NCBI GenBank assembly: GCA_001029295.1
Contig: LDXJ01000064.1
Span: forward strand, 372,001-436,000
Source: Peptococcaceae bacterium CEB3
GTDB taxonomy: Bacteria; Bacillota; Desulfitobacteriia; Desulfitobacteriales; Desulfitobacteriaceae
Direction of reading: 5' to 3'
DNA: 64,000 nt
Part shown: one piece after another, positions 28,232 to 34,998 of the stretch
Layout: each line of letters begins with the position of its first letter
Numbering within the stretch: position 1 is the stretch's first letter
Position numbers and translations under genes: made by a program
Notes under the pieces: generated by a model
Seen by the model: only the letters and a program-made list of their open reading frames with translations
Database searches by the model: none
What the model was told of the DNA's origin: nothing

Positions 28232-28491
28232 CGTGGCCGTGGTGTGGCACATGATGTGACAAGCCATGGTCTGTAAAAAATATTTCCGGAGATTCCTTTA
28301 TAAAAGATAGAAAACAAGCAGGAAATTCCGTTTCCGGGGCGAATATCTTAATAAATTCTAAAAAGATGACAGCACCGGAGAAGACGAGGCCTGTGCTTAT
28401 AAAGGCCCCTGAAACTTGCGTCCTTGATATGTTCCCGGGGGCAGCCGATGGGGCAGGCAGGTTTTCTGTCAGTAAGGAGGTGTCCGACAAG

Positions 28492-30183
28492 GTGGGCATC
28501 GTAAAAATTGGAATCGTGGGCGGAGGAAAAGGAGGTAGTTCTCTTTATAAAACTTTGAAAGACATTGAGCAAGTGGAGATAGCCATGGTCTGCGATGTTT
28601 TGCCGAATGCTCCGGCCTTGATACTCGCCAGACAGGACGGGGTGGCGACATGTCTGTCGCTGGAAGAACTATGCGCCGTTCCGGGCTTGAGCTTGATTAT
28701 TGAGGCTACCGGAAAAGAAGAGGTTCGCCAGCGGATCAATCTCTGCAAGGAACGGCATACGGCCCTGCTGGAGGCGGTGGGAGCCAACCTGATGATGCAT
28801 ATTATCGAGGAAAAAGAGCAGCTCTCGGAAATGAAACGGCTGAAGGGTGAATTGGACGCGATTCTGAATTCTGTTCAGGAGGCCATAGAATTTGCCACCA
28901 ACGATGGAACGATTCGTTTCGTCAACCCGTCCTTCAGTCGGGTAACTGGAGTATCCTCCAAAGAGCGCATCGGTCAGAACATCTTCGAAGCCTCGCCCAA
29001 CGGTGCCTTGGCGCGCGCGTTAAGGACACATGAACCTATCTTTGCCCATCGCTCGCGGGTTGGGGGCTCGGATGTAGAGGTCGTTTCCAATGCCTCACCC
29101 ATCGTAGTCGACGGTCGTCTGGAAGGCGCGGTCGTCGTCTTCCAACCCTTGACCGACATTTACAAACTGATGGAGCAGCTTCAGGCTTCCAACCAGGTTA
29201 TCGACGAGCTCAAAACGAGAATTAACCAAATCACGACCAGCATGTACACTTTTGATGACATTCTCGGCAGCCACCCGGAGTTTGAGAAGGCTCTGGATTT
29301 GGCGGCCAAAGCGGCTAAGAGCGACTCGACCGTCCTCATCTCGGGTGAAAGCGGAACCGGCAAAGAACTTTTTGCCCATGCCATTCACGCGGCCAGCCAA
29401 CGCAGGGATAAACCGTTTGTCAAGGTCAACTGTGCGGCCATTCCCGAGACGTTGCTGGAGAGCGAGTTTTTCGGGCACGAAAAAGGCGCTTTTACCGGAG
29501 CGCTCAAAACAAAATTGGGGAAAATGGAGTTGGCCAACGGGGGCACGATCTTCCTGGACGAAATAGGGGATATGAATTTGCACCTGCAGGCCAAGCTGCT
29601 GCGCGTGCTCCAGGATATGGAGTTTGAGCGAGTCGGCGGTACGCAAACCATCAGAGTAGACGTGCGAATTATCGCGGCGACCAATCGCATGCTGAAAGAA
29701 ATGGTTAAGAAGGGCGATTTTCGCGAGGACCTATATTACCGTTTAAATGTGGTCGAATTGCGCCTGCCCCCTCTGCGCAAGCACAAAGACGATATTCCGG
29801 CCTATGTTCACTCCTTGGTGCTCAAGTTTAACCGCAAATTCGGGAAGCGGGTCAGCGGCCTAACGGCTCAGGCCGAACAGCTTCTGCTCAATTATGACTG
29901 GCCCGGCAATGTGAGAGAACTGCAGAACGTAATTGAGCGGGCCATGGTGACGGTCGAGGAAGACATTATTACCCGCAAACACCTGCTCAACATGGTGGAG
30001 CCGCCTGCCGCGGGCGAGTCCGTACCGTTGGGCGAACTGATGCCCTTGGAAGAAATGGAGAAACGGATGGTCCGCTTGGCCGTCCAGCGCTATGGCGATT
30101 CAGTAGAGGGAAAAAAGAGAGCCGCTCAAACCCTCAATATTTCCCTGGCTACCTTGTACAACAAGCTGAAAATCATTACCTGA
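28492..30183 (+). CDS. Sigma-54-dependent activator with Rossmann-type sensor domain
   Basis: This 563-residue activator has four parts, numbered from the GTG at 28492: a Rossmann-like domain (1-115) with GIVGGGKGG, a PAS domain (about 120-225), an AAA+ domain with Walker A GESGTGKE at 285-292 and the sigma-54 contact GAFTGA at 332-337, and a Fis-type helix-turn-helix at the end (LNISLATLYNKLKI). AAGGAGG precedes that GTG; the frame is open further up to 28366 without ribosome-site support. Activators of this class open sigma-54 promoters with ATP. The Rossmann part could sense a dinucleotide or a redox state. The sdh operon next door has a consensus sigma-54 promoter, so it is the likely target. 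Confidence 0.9.
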   Translation: MGIVKIGIVGGGKGGSSLYKTLKDIEQVEIAMVCDVLPNAPALILARQDGVATCLSLEELCAVPGLSLIIEATGKEEVRQRINLCKERHTALLEAVGANLMMHIIEEKEQLSEMKRLKGELDAILNSVQEAIEFATNDGTIRFVNPSFSRVTGVSSKERIGQNIFEASPNGALARALRTHEPIFAHRSRVGGSDVEVVSNASPIVVDGRLEGAVVVFQPLTDIYKLMEQLQASNQVIDELKTRINQITTSMYTFDDILGSHPEFEKALDLAAKAAKSDSTVLISGESGTGKELFAHAIHAASQRRDKPFVKVNCAAIPETLLESEFFGHEKGAFTGALKTKLGKMELANGGTIFLDEIGDMNLHLQAKLLRVLQDMEFERVGGTQTIRVDVRIIAATNRMLKEMVKKGDFREDLYYRLNVVELRLPPLRKHKDDIPAYVHSLVLKFNRKFGKRVSGLTAQAEQLLLNYDWPGNVRELQNVIERAMVTVEEDIITRKHLLNMVEPPAAGESVPLGELMPLEEMEKRMVRLAVQRYGDSVEGKKRAAQTLNISLATLYNKLKIIT

Positions 30184-30240
30184 AAGAATGATAAAAAGAG
30201 GATAAAAGCGAGCAAGTTTCTACGAAATAGAAAGATCTTG

Positions 30241-30283
30241 TCTAGATTCTAGAAAGACGATGAGAACAAACGAGAACATTCTC
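30241..30283 (+). promoter_or_regulatory. Candidate activator-binding sites upstream of sdhC
   Basis: Two palindromes lie 75-120 bases before the sigma-54 promoter: TCTAGATTCTAGA (30241-30253) and GAGAACATTCTC (30272-30283), with an extra half site GAGAACA at 30262. Their distance fits enhancer sites for a sigma-54 activator. Confidence 0.4.
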
Positions 30284-30358
30284 AACCCCGGCTTGACGCA
30301 AGTGGGGACAGGCGCGTATTTCCGGGTGTTTTCTGAATATAGACAAATCAGTTTTTCT

Positions 30359-30374
30359 TGGCACACTAATTGCT
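30359..30374 (+). promoter_or_regulatory. Sigma-54 (-24/-12) promoter of the sdh operon
   Basis: TGGCAC-ACTAA-TTGCT matches the consensus TGGCAC-N5-TTGCW exactly, with the required GG-to-GC spacing of 12. It lies about 43 bases before the sdhC start codon. Confidence 0.88.
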
Positions 30375-30416
30375 AGAATAGCGCCGTATACCCAGAAAAA
30401 GAAAGGAGAGGTTATT

Positions 30417-31028
30417 TTGAGTACTGTGCAGAGCCAGAGCCCCTATCATTTCCTCATTCGTCGCGTTCATTCGTTGTTGGGCCTGTTGCCCATCGGAGTT
30501 TTTCTTACGTTTCACCTGCTCCTCAATCTCACGGCCCGGAGCGGACCGGCCGCTTATGACCGAGTGATTGAAACGATGAGGCATTTTCCCGGGATTATTA
30601 TCGTCGAATTGGTCGTCATTTTCATTCCGATCACCTTGCACGCCGTTTACGGGGCTTGGGTTGTCTACACCGGGCAAAGCAATGTTTTGCGTTACGGCTA
30701 CGCCAGGAACTGGTTTTATATTCTGCAAAGGATATCCGGGATTTATACGGTCATTTTTATACTGGTCCACGTCTCCGCCCTTCGCTTTGGTGAAGCCAAT
30801 TTCGCCAGCCTGCAGCATTTTGTGGCGAACCCCTGGGGTCTGGCTTTTTATGCTCTGGGCATCGTTCTGGCGGTATTCCACTTTATGAACGGACTTTGGG
30901 CCTTTGCCATAACTTGGGGATTGACGATCGGCCCCCGTTCCCAAAAGATTTGGGCGTATGTTTGCGGCGTTTTGTTCGTCGTTATGTCAGTCGTCGGTTT
31001 GGCGGACCTGAGTGCCTTTCTGAGATGA
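30417..31028 (+). CDS. sdhC: Succinate dehydrogenase/fumarate reductase cytochrome b558 subunit
   Basis: This 203-residue integral membrane protein matches the b558-type SdhC of Bacillus and related Firmicutes. It has five hydrophobic segments and several conserved histidines for heme, in RRVHSLLG, FHLLLN, LHAVYG and LVHVSAL. It anchors the enzyme and passes electrons to or from menaquinone. The start is a TTG behind AAAGGAGAG. It is first in a three-gene operon under the sigma-54 promoter. Confidence 0.92.
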   Translation: MSTVQSQSPYHFLIRRVHSLLGLLPIGVFLTFHLLLNLTARSGPAAYDRVIETMRHFPGIIIVELVVIFIPITLHAVYGAWVVYTGQSNVLRYGYARNWFYILQRISGIYTVIFILVHVSALRFGEANFASLQHFVANPWGLAFYALGIVLAVFHFMNGLWAFAITWGLTIGPRSQKIWAYVCGVLFVVMSVVGLADLSAFLR

Positions 31029-31061
31029 GATTCTGAAACGAGACTAGGAAGGAGAATGACA

Positions 31062-32795
31062 ATGAGCAAGGTTATCATCGTCGGCGGCGGCTTGGCCGGC
31101 TTGATGGCGGCGATAAAAATAGCGGAAGAGGGCTCCTCAGTCGACTTGTTTTCTTTGGTTCCCGTGAAGAGGTCCCACTCCGTCTGCGCCCAAGGCGGTA
31201 TCAACGGAGCGGTCAACACCAAAGGGGAAGGCGATTCTCCCTGGGAGCATTTTGATGACACGGTTTACGGCGGAGATTTCCTGGCCAACCAGCCGCCGGT
31301 CAAGGCGATGTGCGAAGCGGCTCCGGACATTATCCACTTAATGGACCGCATGGGCGTCATGTTCAACCGGACACCCGAAGGACTTTTGGATTTCAGGCGC
31401 TTTGGCGGTACTAAACGCCACCGGACGGCTTTTGCCGGAGCGACGACAGGGCAGCAGCTCCTCTATGCCTTGGACGAACAAGTACGCCGCTATGAAGTGG
31501 AAGGTTTGGTCAAGAAACACGAGTTTTGGGAATTCCTTTCCGCGGTGGTTGACGACGGCATCTGCCGGGGAATCGTCGCCCAGAATCTGCGTGACATGAG
31601 CATCGAAGCTTTTGCCGCCGACGCGGTGATTGTCGCCACCGGCGGCAATGGCATGATCTACGGCAAGAGTACGAATTCGACCATTAATACGGGCTCTGCC
31701 GCTTCTCTGCTCTATCAGCAGGGAGTCAGGTATGCCAACGGGGAGTTCATTCAGATTCATCCCACCGCCATTCCGGGCGAGGATAAACTCCGCCTGATGT
31801 CAGAGTCGGCTCGGGGCGAAGGCGGCCGCATCTGGACCTATAAGGACGGCAAACCGTGGTATTTTCTGGAGGAGATGTACCCGGCTTACGGCAACCTGGT
31901 CCCACGCGATATCGCAACCAGGGCCATCTATCATGTGGTTTTTGACCTAGGTCTGGGCATTAACGGCGAGAATATGGTTTATTTGGATCTGTCGCATAAA
32001 GATCCCCATGAACTGGAAGTCAAGTTGGGTGGAATCATCGAGATTTACGAGAAATTTGTCGGGGAGGACCCGAAAAAAGTTCCCATGCGCCTTTTCCCGG
32101 CTGTTCACTATTCGATGGGAGGTCTCTGGGTCGACTATGATCAGATGACCAATATTCCCGGCCTTTTTGCGGCCGGGGAGTGTGAATACCAGTACCACGG
32201 GGCCAACCGCTTGGGGGCGAATTCCCTGGTGTCCGCCATTTATGCCGGTATGGTCTCCGGGCCGAAGAGCCTGGAGTATGTCAGCAAGAATAAAATCAAA
32301 ACGCCGAGCGCGGACGAACCGGCTTTCCAAAAGGAGAAGAAACGCCAAGAGGAGAAATGGGCCAAGATCCTGAACATGCACGGCTCGGAAAATCCCTATG
32401 TCCTGCACAAAGAACTGGGCGAACTGATGACGGAAAATGTGACGGTGGTGCGTTACAATGACAAGCTGGAGGAAACGGACCGCCGCTTGCGGGATCTGAT
32501 GAAACGTTGGCAGAATATCGGGGCCGATGATCCGGTGGTTTGGAGTTCACAGATAGCTCCTTTTACCCGGCAGCTCTGGAATATGATGGAGTTGGCCAGG
32601 GTGATCACCTTAGGAGCCTTGCGCCGCAATGAGAGCCGAGGAGCCCACTACAAACCGGACTATCCGGAACGCGATGACGCCAATTGGCTGAAGACGACGC
32701 TCGCGACCTGGACACCCAAGGGGCCGGAGTTCAGTTATGAACCGGTTGACGTCTCTTTGATTCCGCCGCGGGCGCGCCACTACGATGTCGATTAA
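31062..32795 (+). CDS. sdhA: Succinate dehydrogenase/fumarate reductase flavoprotein
   Basis: This is the FAD subunit, 577 residues, interconverting succinate and fumarate. The FAD motif GGGLAGLMAA lies at the N-terminus, and the histidine in KRSHSVCAQGGINGA is the usual covalent FAD site. The substrate/catalytic blocks HPTAIPG, SESARGEGG, HYSMGGLWVD and YHGANRLGANSLV are intact. The ATG at 31062 has the better ribosome-site spacing; an ATG two codons upstream lies too close to it. Sequence alone does not show which direction the enzyme runs in vivo. Confidence 0.95.
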   Translation: MSKVIIVGGGLAGLMAAIKIAEEGSSVDLFSLVPVKRSHSVCAQGGINGAVNTKGEGDSPWEHFDDTVYGGDFLANQPPVKAMCEAAPDIIHLMDRMGVMFNRTPEGLLDFRRFGGTKRHRTAFAGATTGQQLLYALDEQVRRYEVEGLVKKHEFWEFLSAVVDDGICRGIVAQNLRDMSIEAFAADAVIVATGGNGMIYGKSTNSTINTGSAASLLYQQGVRYANGEFIQIHPTAIPGEDKLRLMSESARGEGGRIWTYKDGKPWYFLEEMYPAYGNLVPRDIATRAIYHVVFDLGLGINGENMVYLDLSHKDPHELEVKLGGIIEIYEKFVGEDPKKVPMRLFPAVHYSMGGLWVDYDQMTNIPGLFAAGECEYQYHGANRLGANSLVSAIYAGMVSGPKSLEYVSKNKIKTPSADEPAFQKEKKRQEEKWAKILNMHGSENPYVLHKELGELMTENVTVVRYNDKLEETDRRLRDLMKRWQNIGADDPVVWSSQIAPFTRQLWNMMELARVITLGALRRNESRGAHYKPDYPERDDANWLKTTLATWTPKGPEFSYEPVDVSLIPPRARHYDVD

Positions 32796-32812
32796 GAGGG
32801 GGAGGGATAGAG

Positions 32813-33565
32813 ATGGCCGAGAATAAAGAGATCCGTTTGAAAATTCGCCGCCAGGACGGGCCGGATAAGCCGTCCCGCTGGGAGGAATTTACCATAGAAT
32901 ATCACCCGAAGATGAATGTCATCTCCTGCCTGATGGAGATCCAGAAGAACCCGGTGACGGCGGACGGCAAGAAGACGACTGCCGTGGTCTGGGAGTGCAA
33001 TTGCCTGGAAGAGGTCTGCGGAGCCTGTTCTATGAACATTAACGGCCAGGCGCGGCAAGCTTGCTCAGCCTTGATTGACCAACTCGAACAACCGATCGTC
33101 TTGGCTCCCCTGACCAAGTTTCCGCTCATCCGGGACCTCATGGTTGACCGCCAAATCATGTTCGACAACCTGAAGAAAGTGCATGCCTGGATTCCGATTG
33201 ACGGCACTTACAGTTTGGGACCGGGACCGCGCATGGCTGAAGTGAAACGACAATGGGCCTACGAACTTTCCAAATGTATGACCTGCGGCTGCTGTATGGA
33301 GGCCTGCCCTCAAGTCAATTCCCGTTCTAAGTTCATCGGCCCGGCCGCCATTTCCCAAGTCCGTCTCTTTAACGCTCATCCGACGGGAGAGATGAACAAG
33401 CATGAACGCTTAGCCGCCTTGCTCGACGACGGGGGAATCACGGACTGCGGCAATGCCCAGAACTGTGTGCGGGCTTGCCCGAAAAATATTCCGCTCACAA
33501 CCAGCATAGCCGATTTGAACAGGGAGACCAACAAATTTGCTCTGAATCGTTGGTTACGCAAGTAA
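32813..33565 (+). CDS. sdhB: Succinate dehydrogenase/fumarate reductase iron-sulfur subunit
   Basis: This 250-residue subunit carries the electron wire between FAD and the membrane heme. The [2Fe-2S] motif is in CNCLEEVCGACSMNINGQ, the [4Fe-4S] motif in CMTCGCCMEACPQ, and the third cluster in NCVRACPKNIPL. The ATG has a GGGGGAGGG site in front. It ends the operon and is followed by a hairpin terminator. Confidence 0.95.
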   Translation: MAENKEIRLKIRRQDGPDKPSRWEEFTIEYHPKMNVISCLMEIQKNPVTADGKKTTAVVWECNCLEEVCGACSMNINGQARQACSALIDQLEQPIVLAPLTKFPLIRDLMVDRQIMFDNLKKVHAWIPIDGTYSLGPGPRMAEVKRQWAYELSKCMTCGCCMEACPQVNSRSKFIGPAAISQVRLFNAHPTGEMNKHERLAALLDDGGITDCGNAQNCVRACPKNIPLTTSIADLNRETNKFALNRWLRK

Positions 33566-34419: not shown

Positions 34420-34998
34420 ATGAAGCGCACCATCGTAGCAATCGACGACTCTGCCATGATCCAGGAGATCAAAACGCTTTTGGCTGTGGTGGATTATCAG
34501 GGACTGGCTTTCACGGGGAACGGCATGGAGGCCCTGCGGCTCCTGCACCGTTTTGAACCGGACCTCATGATCATAGGACGCAACCTTTCGGGTCTGAATT
34601 CTTCCGACTTGCTGCAGACGCTCCTCACCCTCCATCTTTGCCCGACCATGGTCGTGCTCAATGCGGATGAACATACTCTTCTGACCCAGGTGGTCGGAGC
34701 GGGACCCCATCAGGTTGTTTTTTACCCTTTGCGGGCTGTGGATTTCGTGGCTGCGGTTCTGTTGGCGGAAGAGCGGTTTAAACAGGAGAGAGAAAGTGCT
34801 GATCGCATTCGGCGTTTGGAAGATGAGCTGAAAGCCAGGAAATTGATCTATCAGGCTCTTCTCCGTTTGATCCAAGCGCGGGGGTGGGATGAGGAAAAAG
34901 CCTATGCGCTTCTGCGCAGTGAAGCGATGACCCAACGCCGGAGTATTCGTTCCCTGGCTCTTGATATTATCAAGGGGAATTGGTTTCCCGAGGCATAG
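34420..34998 (+). CDS. ANTAR RNA-binding regulator with degenerate receiver
   Basis: This 192-residue protein has a receiver-like domain (1-120), a coiled linker and an ANTAR domain (about 135-188, ending AMTQRRSIRSLALDIIKG). ANTAR proteins bind paired hairpins in mRNA leaders and prevent termination. The receiver keeps D9-D10, but the phosphorylated aspartate is a glycine (G53 in LMIIGRNLSG) and the conserved lysine is a tyrosine (Y102 in VVFYPL). It is therefore unlikely to work by ordinary phosphorylation. No cognate kinase is adjacent. The target RNA is unknown. Confidence 0.87.
   Translation: MKRTIVAIDDSAMIQEIKTLLAVVDYQGLAFTGNGMEALRLLHRFEPDLMIIGRNLSGLNSSDLLQTLLTLHLCPTMVVLNADEHTLLTQVVGAGPHQVVFYPLRAVDFVAAVLLAEERFKQERESADRIRRLEDELKARKLIYQALLRLIQARGWDEEKAYALLRSEAMTQRRSIRSLALDIIKGNWFPEA

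Follow-up and report, generated by a model that had tools for sequence, protein, structure and literature searches.

Among described regulators, BkdR, which serves branched-chain keto acid degradation with sigma-L in Bacillus, has the ptb-bcd-buk operon as its neighbour, and RtcR is a sigma-54 activator that is not known to have a PAS domain. The mmc cluster of Pelotomaculum is said, in an abstract by Kosaka from 2006, to include a regulator gene. The BkdR of Bacillus thuringiensis has two PAS/PAC domains (PMC4428206, in whose main text the word Rossmann is absent). The locus compared with these systems here lies in a window of 64,000 nucleotides from Peptococcaceae bacterium CEB3 (contig LDXJ01000064.1, positions 372,001 to 436,000), where the gene of a sigma-54 enhancer-binding protein with an N-terminal Rossmann domain precedes the succinate dehydrogenase operon sdhCAB. 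We regard it as quite probable that this protein is a one-component sigma-54 activator of sdhCAB, acting through two upstream dyads and taking its input through its Rossmann and PAS domains.

Succinate oxidation is described as the energetically worst step of methylmalonyl-CoA (coenzyme A) propionate oxidation in passages of PMC10308238, which name no switch for the genes concerned. The mmc cluster of Pelotomaculum thermopropionicum (PTH_1356-1369) is reported in part of PMC6046458 to be more than fourfold up in co-culture. Passages of Nie 2019 (PMC6615313) set out 39 activator groups, none with sdh, and Rossmann is not among the domain kinds given there. The word was also not found in the available text of the sigma-54 papers searched for it, and the open-licence titles and abstracts listed hold neither sigma-54 control of sdh in these bacteria nor the Rossmann module described below.

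Proposed sigma-54 control of sdhCAB

The activator gene, a 233-base gap, sdhC, sdhA and sdhB all run in one direction. The gene has a GTG start preceded by AAGGAGG at 28474-28480, and its product has an AAA+ domain in which Walker A and Walker B occur together with the GAFTGA loop (residues 332-337, positions 29485-29502), the features that define a sigma-54 enhancer-binding protein. The recognition region of its helix-turn-helix (HTH) is near-identical throughout the activator clade. The operon, whose enzyme could act in vivo in either direction, as succinate dehydrogenase or as fumarate reductase, is of the Type-B menaquinone kind, with a single b558-type membrane subunit and SdhA and SdhB of the Bacillus subtilis type (TIGR02046, TIGR01811, NF006391). 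The host genome (5.3 Mb, 64 contigs) contains one rpoN match, in a frame of 457 amino acids (aa), so the sigma factor and a -24/-12 element at the target occur in the same genome. The activator-sdhC order is preserved from the genus of the window (g1; g6 denotes another genus of the same family) out to another family of the order.

Within the window, TGGCACACTAATTGCT is the sole exact match to TGGCACN5TTGCW. When one mismatch is allowed, two matches occur against 1.94 expected, and with a count at chance level the match in a single genome is weak when taken alone. This doubt is removed by the conservation of the element in the gaps of relatives. TGGCAY-N5-TTGCW is found in the activator-sdhC gap at 28 of 31 loci, among which are the locus of the window itself and duplicates of some genomes that occur in both of two collections; same-family whole-genome loci have it in 19 of 19 cases, the window's own included. 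One of the 28 (L040, Thermincola) has fumarase genes between activator and sdhC, with the element ahead of those genes. Spacer and flanks of the element diverge widely among loci. In 22 loci of other families, of which L159 and L162 repeat L040 and L041 and L157-L159 and L165/L166 are near relatives of each other, 13 gaps hold TGGYAY-N5-TTGCW (11 TGGCAY, 2 TGGTAY), whereas the remainder of those loci predicts 0.011 hits for the 5,743 gap bases. Over the whole host genome, exact TGGCAYN5TTGCW yields 60 sites, compared with 10 for the reversed pattern.

Element and GAFTGA are also lost in parallel. The three exceptions among the 31 loci (L022-L024, family-2) have a shortened GAFTGA loop, a gap of 10-19 bases and no element, and no element was present in the gap at any of the seven loci examined whose activators lack GAFTGA. 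Three g4 genomes carry an orthologue without the Rossmann domain and without GAFTGA, distant from sdh; these proteins form a long branch inside the sdh clade, and the tree places the losses within that clade. No element of at least 10/11 follows the g4 orthologues, and at the two g4 sdhCAB loci examined there are neither element nor dyads. The copy in G007 reads GAFNEA and misses the PAS region, and no sdhA was found in that genome at E 1e-100. Given this threshold, sdhA is absent from four of 20 genomes searched (G006, G007, G016, G017); an intact Rossmann activator is present in none of these four and in 12 of the 16 sdhA-bearing genomes, the others being G004, G012, G022 and G026. These natural losses fit the predicted sigma-54 activator.

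At L022-L024, L147 and L148, GAFTGA is lost and the operon-like order with sdhCAB is kept; these activators may have turned to sigma-70 or become repressors. Sites resembling the dyad at 9/10 lie upstream of the activator at L147 and L148, and no convincing promoter was seen upstream of the activator at these two loci (operon-type f2) or at L163, L164, L167, L168 and L170.

Side-by-side comparison of the gaps yielded a conserved upstream motif, consisting of two TTCTA-N5-TAGAA copies, the second of which begins about 30 bp after the first. Pairs were scored in 21 loci, a set that excludes seven named ones because they duplicate whole-genome loci. In 19 of the 21 the best dyad pair was unmatched by any of 100 shuffles, the pair score being reached in L006 (4/100) and L040 (2/100), in a test that is partly circular because the consensus was read by eye from loci later scored. 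The motif was therefore retested on the 22 later loci of other families, whose gaps, with the repeated records and near relatives given above, contain 23 sites of at least 9/10, compared with 0.5 on average and at most 4 in 200 shuffles. The second copy is centred 96-174 bp ahead of the -24 GG in 20 of the 21 loci (320 in L035), and 106 bp ahead of it in the window. With dyads and HTH both conserved across the clade, the dyads are predicted to be the HTH binding sites. The exact dyad occurs at two places in the 5.3 Mb, one of them this gap, which suggests that the regulon may be little larger than the sdhCAB operon, although imperfect sites may add to it. Exact paired dyads were present in only two of 17 genomes searched, which indicates that one half of a site usually departs from the consensus. 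Autoregulation of the activator is possible through the site 5' of its gene (Table 1); L003 also has a 9/10 site there, TTATAGAAGATAGAA.

Sequence comparison thus gives good support to sigma-54 control of sdhCAB through this activator. In the proposed mechanism, the Fis-type HTH would bind the two dyads, about three helical turns apart, and the AAA+ GAFTGA domain, judging from motifs and conservation, would remodel the RNA polymerase-sigma-54 held at 30359-30374, with the PAS domain and the preceding Rossmann domain setting the activity. The preliminary description of the window had proposed a Rossmann-PAS-AAA+(GAFTGA)-Fis activator, a perfect TGGCAC-N5-TTGCT element before sdhC and control of the operon through it. 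The first is borne out by the open reading frame and its start, the Pfam domains and the Rossmann model, the second by the exact and conserved match, and the third by phylogenetic footprinting and the parallel losses. The palindromes it placed at enhancer distance stand only in part: conserved dyads do lie upstream, and the interval 30241-30283 spans site 2, but site 1 lies outside it and GAGAACATTCTC (30272-30283), a real palindrome, is lost even in the sister species L003 and was rejected as an enhancer.

Several observations weigh against this reading, in addition to the circularity and repeated records stated with the dyad tests. The element is missing from nine of the 22 distant gaps (L163, L164, L167, L168, L170, L169, L175, L177 and L176, the last with an element one base off), although the loop of these nine activators is GAFTGA or the tolerated GSFTGA/GAYTGA. 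In G022 and G026 a perfect element precedes sdhC but no intact Rossmann activator adjoins it, so another activator may serve that element; sdhC is preceded there by dicarboxylate TRAP transporter genes, in G022 also by an activator remnant. In G008 the activator is accompanied by a 9/10 dyad and by a perfect element, yet sdh does not adjoin them. Site 2 of the window scores only 7/10, and the dyad with one mismatch is not enriched genome-wide (65 matches versus 190 for the reversed pattern). In addition, sdhCAB could have a second, sigma-70 promoter.

The features of the locus are presented in Table 1.

Table 1. Positions of the activator, its domains, the candidate control sites and sdhCAB in the window.
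Feature	Positions	Strand	Basis
TTCTA-N5-TAGAA-like site TTATAAAAGATAGAA, 9/10, 5' of activator gene	28298..28312	+	weak: single site
Sigma-54 enhancer-binding protein, 563 aa	28492..30183	+	GTG start, stop included; full-length homologues found
N-terminal NAD-type Rossmann domain, residues 1-118	28492..28845	+	GGGKGG at 10-15, D35, E71; AlphaFold2 model, motif conservation
PAS domain, residues 119-225	28846..29166	+	PF00989, 3.2e-8, residues 120-219
AAA+ domain and lid, residues 257-503	29260..30000	+	Pfam PF00158, 5.6e-75; Walker A, Walker B
Fis-type HTH region, residues 520-563	30049..30180	+	HTH_8, E 0.0019 at residues 541-560, under Pfam cut-off
Candidate upstream activator site 1, TTCTACGAAATAGAA, 10/10	30218..30232	+	conserved dyad; one of 2 exact matches in 5.3 Mb
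Candidate upstream activator site 2, TTCTAGAAAGACGAT, 7/10	30247..30261	+	start 29 bp past site 1; pair score reached in 0/100 shuffles
Sigma-54 -24/-12 element TGGCACACTAATTGCT	30359..30374	+	exact match, conserved in relatives
sdhC, cytochrome b558-type membrane subunit	30417..31028	+	TTG start; TIGR02046, 97.8 bits against cut-off 96
sdhA, flavoprotein subunit	31056..32795	+	NF006392 and TIGR01811 above cut-off
sdhB, iron-sulfur subunit	32813..33565	+	NF006391 above cut-off

Some further observations concern single loci. L209 (2070-2423) and L210 have sdhCAB with a perfect sigma-54 element beside dctQM-type TRAP genes, and in L209 a 117-aa activator remnant lies between the TRAP genes and sdhCAB. 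At L150 (4832-5524), activator, dyad and perfect element are followed by an opposite-strand gene instead of sdh. A second copy in G014, with two 9/10 dyads and no element, stands ahead of a YcbB-type response regulator and a dicarboxylate/glutamate symporter. The host genome has a second sdh operon behind an MmgE/PrpD gene (contig C59, L213:5000-13272), its sdhA 73% identical, which is also seen in L217, L216 and L214. A PrpR_N-type sigma-54 activator lies upstream of it in L213 and L217, and sigma-54-like elements of at least 10/11 are present in all four loci; sigma-54 may hence govern two sdh operons via different sensors. Slightly downstream of sdhB, at 34420-34998 of the window, is a response regulator with an ANTAR RNA-binding domain.

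The activator clade in other families

A profile of the N-terminus and PAS domain, applied to 299 genomes of the phylum at E 1e-80, found such activators in 25, among them the host genome and three relatives from the same order. For the 22 loci of other families, selected neighbouring genes were checked and the rest assigned by similarity or by eye. L157-L161 have fumarase AB, sdhC, sdhA and a further gene (malic enzyme by eye), with sdhB called in four of the five. Fumarase AB adjoins without sdh in L165, L166 and L172, and together with succinyl-CoA synthetase and methylmalonyl-CoA mutase in L173, L176 and L178. Synthetase and mutase genes are the neighbours in L163, L164, L167, L168, L170 and L171, the first five of these being succinyl-CoA-synthetase-first. 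Amine-oxidase-like, DapA-like and symporter genes are found in L162 and L174, a symporter gene ahead of the activator in L175 and L177, and a second activator in L169. In the host genome itself there is one match to fumarase and there are four to the mutase family.

In a maximum-likelihood tree of 47 proteins (midpoint root), the sdh, fumarase and mutase types form one clade (35 rows, 97/96); the amine-oxidase/symporter types are adjacent to this clade, and the BkdR-like proteins fall outside it. The window activator lies within this clade and has its DNA motif in common with it. In other families of the phylum, genes for fumarase, succinyl-CoA synthetase and methylmalonyl-CoA mutase are the commonest neighbours of the clade, and in this family its members usually lie next to sdhCAB; the neighbour genes belong to the methylmalonyl-CoA route by which syntrophs oxidise propionate. 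The activator, whose role the preliminary description presented as unusual, is less isolated than was supposed there, as its clade spans the phylum. A one-motif sigma-54 activator clade beside sdh, fumarase and mutase genes phylum-wide offers a directly testable regulator.

The Rossmann domain and its candidate ligands

A model of the first two domains had PAS or LOV proteins among its best 50 matches listed, the best being the cytoplasmic PAS of CitA (8bjp/5fq1); the Rossmann part was therefore modelled alone. The two parts are linked in the two-domain model by a long helix (residues 95-127) with a predicted local distance difference test (pLDDT) of about 70. The AlphaFold2 model of residues 1-116 has a pLDDT of 90.3 and a predicted template modelling score of 0.81. 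By VIA-align its best match is acylating acetaldehyde dehydrogenase 1nvm (Z 12.6, with a root-mean-square deviation of 2.1 over 103 aligned positions), level with which are 4lrs and the NAD-bound GenD2 6nor (Z 12.5); Foldseek also points to this enzyme family, and the sequence profile agrees (1.2e-8 to 7z3s). The domain has GxGxxG and an acidic residue closing strand 2, the mark of such folds. An acidic residue at the D35 position is typical of NAD-type sites and favours NAD over NADP or CoA. A dinucleotide-type Rossmann domain at the N-terminus, as the preliminary description had supposed, is supported by the agreement between motif and predicted model.

Across the clade, the Rossmann domain is the fastest-changing of the four activator segments, with a median identity to the window protein of 43% (PAS 64%, AAA+ 69%, HTH 62%), and the motif residues are kept nonetheless. 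Among 39 activators, with degenerate members in, a few records doubled, and the three domain-less g4 proteins, L255, L256 and L258 out, G10 is kept in 38, G12, G15 and D35 in 37 each, E71 in 36 and T73 in 34. In the Rossmann part of the scanned proteins, Pfam gives only general NAD-binding families, some under cut-off; GFO_IDH_MocA passes its cut-off in several relatives (e.g., L041 25.9, L253 29.3). Profile A3, used below, omitted the degenerate L171, L173, L176, L178 and L143, so its "invariant" columns overstate conservation.

The same module occurs on other proteins. With a profile from 18 N-termini at E 1e-12, it was found in 110 of 398 genomes of the phylum. By frame length, the 140 matches listed divide into 69 of 260-370 aa, 35 of 560-642, 14 of 485-525, 10 of 660-790, four of 220-250, two of 371-480 and six of fewer than 160; for matches outside the fetched regions these lengths give only an indication of architecture. 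Nineteen of the 20 regions fetched contain a module-bearing frame, and five of these are activators; Pfam scans of eight of the 14 others yielded six with a methyl-accepting chemotaxis protein (MCP) signalling domain, one with PAS, GAF and HD, and one nearly free-standing module. The MCP fusions come in short and 500-aa forms, and three further proteins of the order are such fusions by sequence, two of them scanned. Its presence on MCP, HD and BkdR-like activator proteins indicates that the Rossmann module is, by predicted architecture, a modular input domain.

Fusions of the module to an MCP signalling domain, some of them small soluble proteins and others 500 aa long, are encoded at L152:417-1286, L153:4247-5110, L154:4401-5195, L262:313-1158 and L249:1457-3004. 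L257:2099-4372 encodes a 757-aa protein in which the module (profile A3) is followed by PAS, GAF and HD, and at L252:3779-4918 a gene resembling acyl-CoA dehydrogenase by eye lies beside a 516-aa Rossmann chemoreceptor-like protein, another CoA-pathway neighbour.

As to the ligand, NAD(H) is the likeliest candidate for the domain, at about even odds. By motif and model, the domain is that of a dehydrogenase's NAD-binding part with the catalytic partner missing, and the reading of NAD(H) that we infer would act as a redox switch, tying succinate/fumarate metabolism to the state of the cell. Since the neighbours of module-bearing proteins are diverse (succinate, propionate, branched-chain and amino acid pathways), a shared ligand such as NAD(H), with PAS adding substrate specificity, is easier to picture. 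A wider proposal, which we make tentatively and hold to be somewhat short of even, is that the stripped NAD-binding domain serves sigma-54 activators (BkdR-like ones among them), soluble chemoreceptors and an HD-domain protein of the phylum as a general cytoplasmic redox input, sdh in the window following NADH/NAD+. NAD binding is disfavoured by two results: GFO_IDH_MocA scores 15.8 at residues 4-108 of the window protein against a cut-off of 24, and the fumarase- or mutase-linked L171, L173, L176, L178 and L264 are degenerate in GxGxxG, D35 or E71, so that NAD binding by every member of the family is disfavoured.

A third difficulty is that several neighbours belong to CoA pathways, and they lend some weight to a rather unlikely alternative, in which the ligand is a CoA thioester (succinyl-, propionyl-, methylmalonyl- or branched-chain acyl-CoA) and the activator reports intermediates, not redox. 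These are sucCD and methylmalonyl-CoA mutase in the clade and phosphate butyryltransferase beside the BkdR-like members; the closest fold, moreover, comes from an enzyme family that uses CoA besides NAD, and L041 matches Pfam CoA_binding at 2.4e-4, where its 22.2 bits fall just short of the cut-off, 22.3. However, the D35 kept in nearly all activators disfavours the 3'-phosphate of CoA, and the amine-oxidase-like and symporter neighbours represent pathways without CoA.

It is quite unlikely that the domain is instead a protein docking surface or a vestigial fold and that PAS alone senses the ligand. Its low conservation relative to the other segments would suit this, as would the example of DhaR, a sigma-54 activator that protein partners control at its N-terminus, with 4lrx, 4lry and 4lrz being among the matches of the two-domain model; yet dinucleotide-motif residues are kept amid the drift, and the module recurs on unrelated outputs. 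That the -24/-12 element arose by pure chance, with sdhCAB on another promoter and the activator acting elsewhere, is hard to hold and extremely improbable, for although the one-mismatch count is at expectation and one more exact site among 60 per genome is not rare, the element recurs in the gaps of near and distant loci and is lost together with GAFTGA.

Comparison with known systems

Acylating acetaldehyde dehydrogenase (1nvm, 4lrs, 7z3s) and Gfo/Idh/MocA enzymes have the same fold, GxGxxG and strand-2 acidic residue as the activator, whose chain differs by continuing into PAS and having no catalytic domain; with PAS, AAA+ and HTH from residue 119 onward, the protein was rejected as an NAD-dependent dehydrogenase. 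Among NCBIfam models the best-scoring is PrdR (NF041552), aligned over residues 70-560 at 437.3 bits, and assignment to PrdR was rejected since the cut-off, 795, is far higher. Rex and other repressors that read NADH likewise have a Rossmann sensor in a transcription regulator; the window protein is unlike them in being a sigma-54 activator of the AAA+ type that has a Fis HTH and a PAS domain, and its Rossmann domain is nearer another dehydrogenase branch. RtcR also carries a Rossmann-like fold ahead of AAA+, but its CARF is another Rossmann type, bound there by RtcAB proteins, according to passages of PMC9650030.

The same Rossmann module, with PAS, AAA+ and Fis HTH, is carried by L254 and L255, termed BkdR-like by gene context: phosphate butyryltransferase is next downstream in both, spo0A is upstream in L254, and the loop is GAFSGA. 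Part of PMC3162934 gives the same T-to-S loop change for B. subtilis BkdR. Unlike the window activator, these two proteins have two PAS domains, another target and a separate tree branch. Given its single PAS domain and its sdhCAB neighbour in place of ptb-bcd-buk, the window activator was not accepted as a BkdR. The module would provide BkdR-like activators with a candidate sensor and add an input domain to one-component signalling.

Within the literature searched, this sensor domain and target set are an undescribed variant of sigma-54 activators. If the wider proposal is true, a redox input would act at the step limiting propionate-oxidising syntrophs. The regulator of the Pelotomaculum-type mmc cluster is another close parallel: proteins of the window activator's clade stand beside fumAB, sucCD, mutase and epimerase genes in loci of L163-L178, whereas the neighbour of the window activator is sdhCAB alone.

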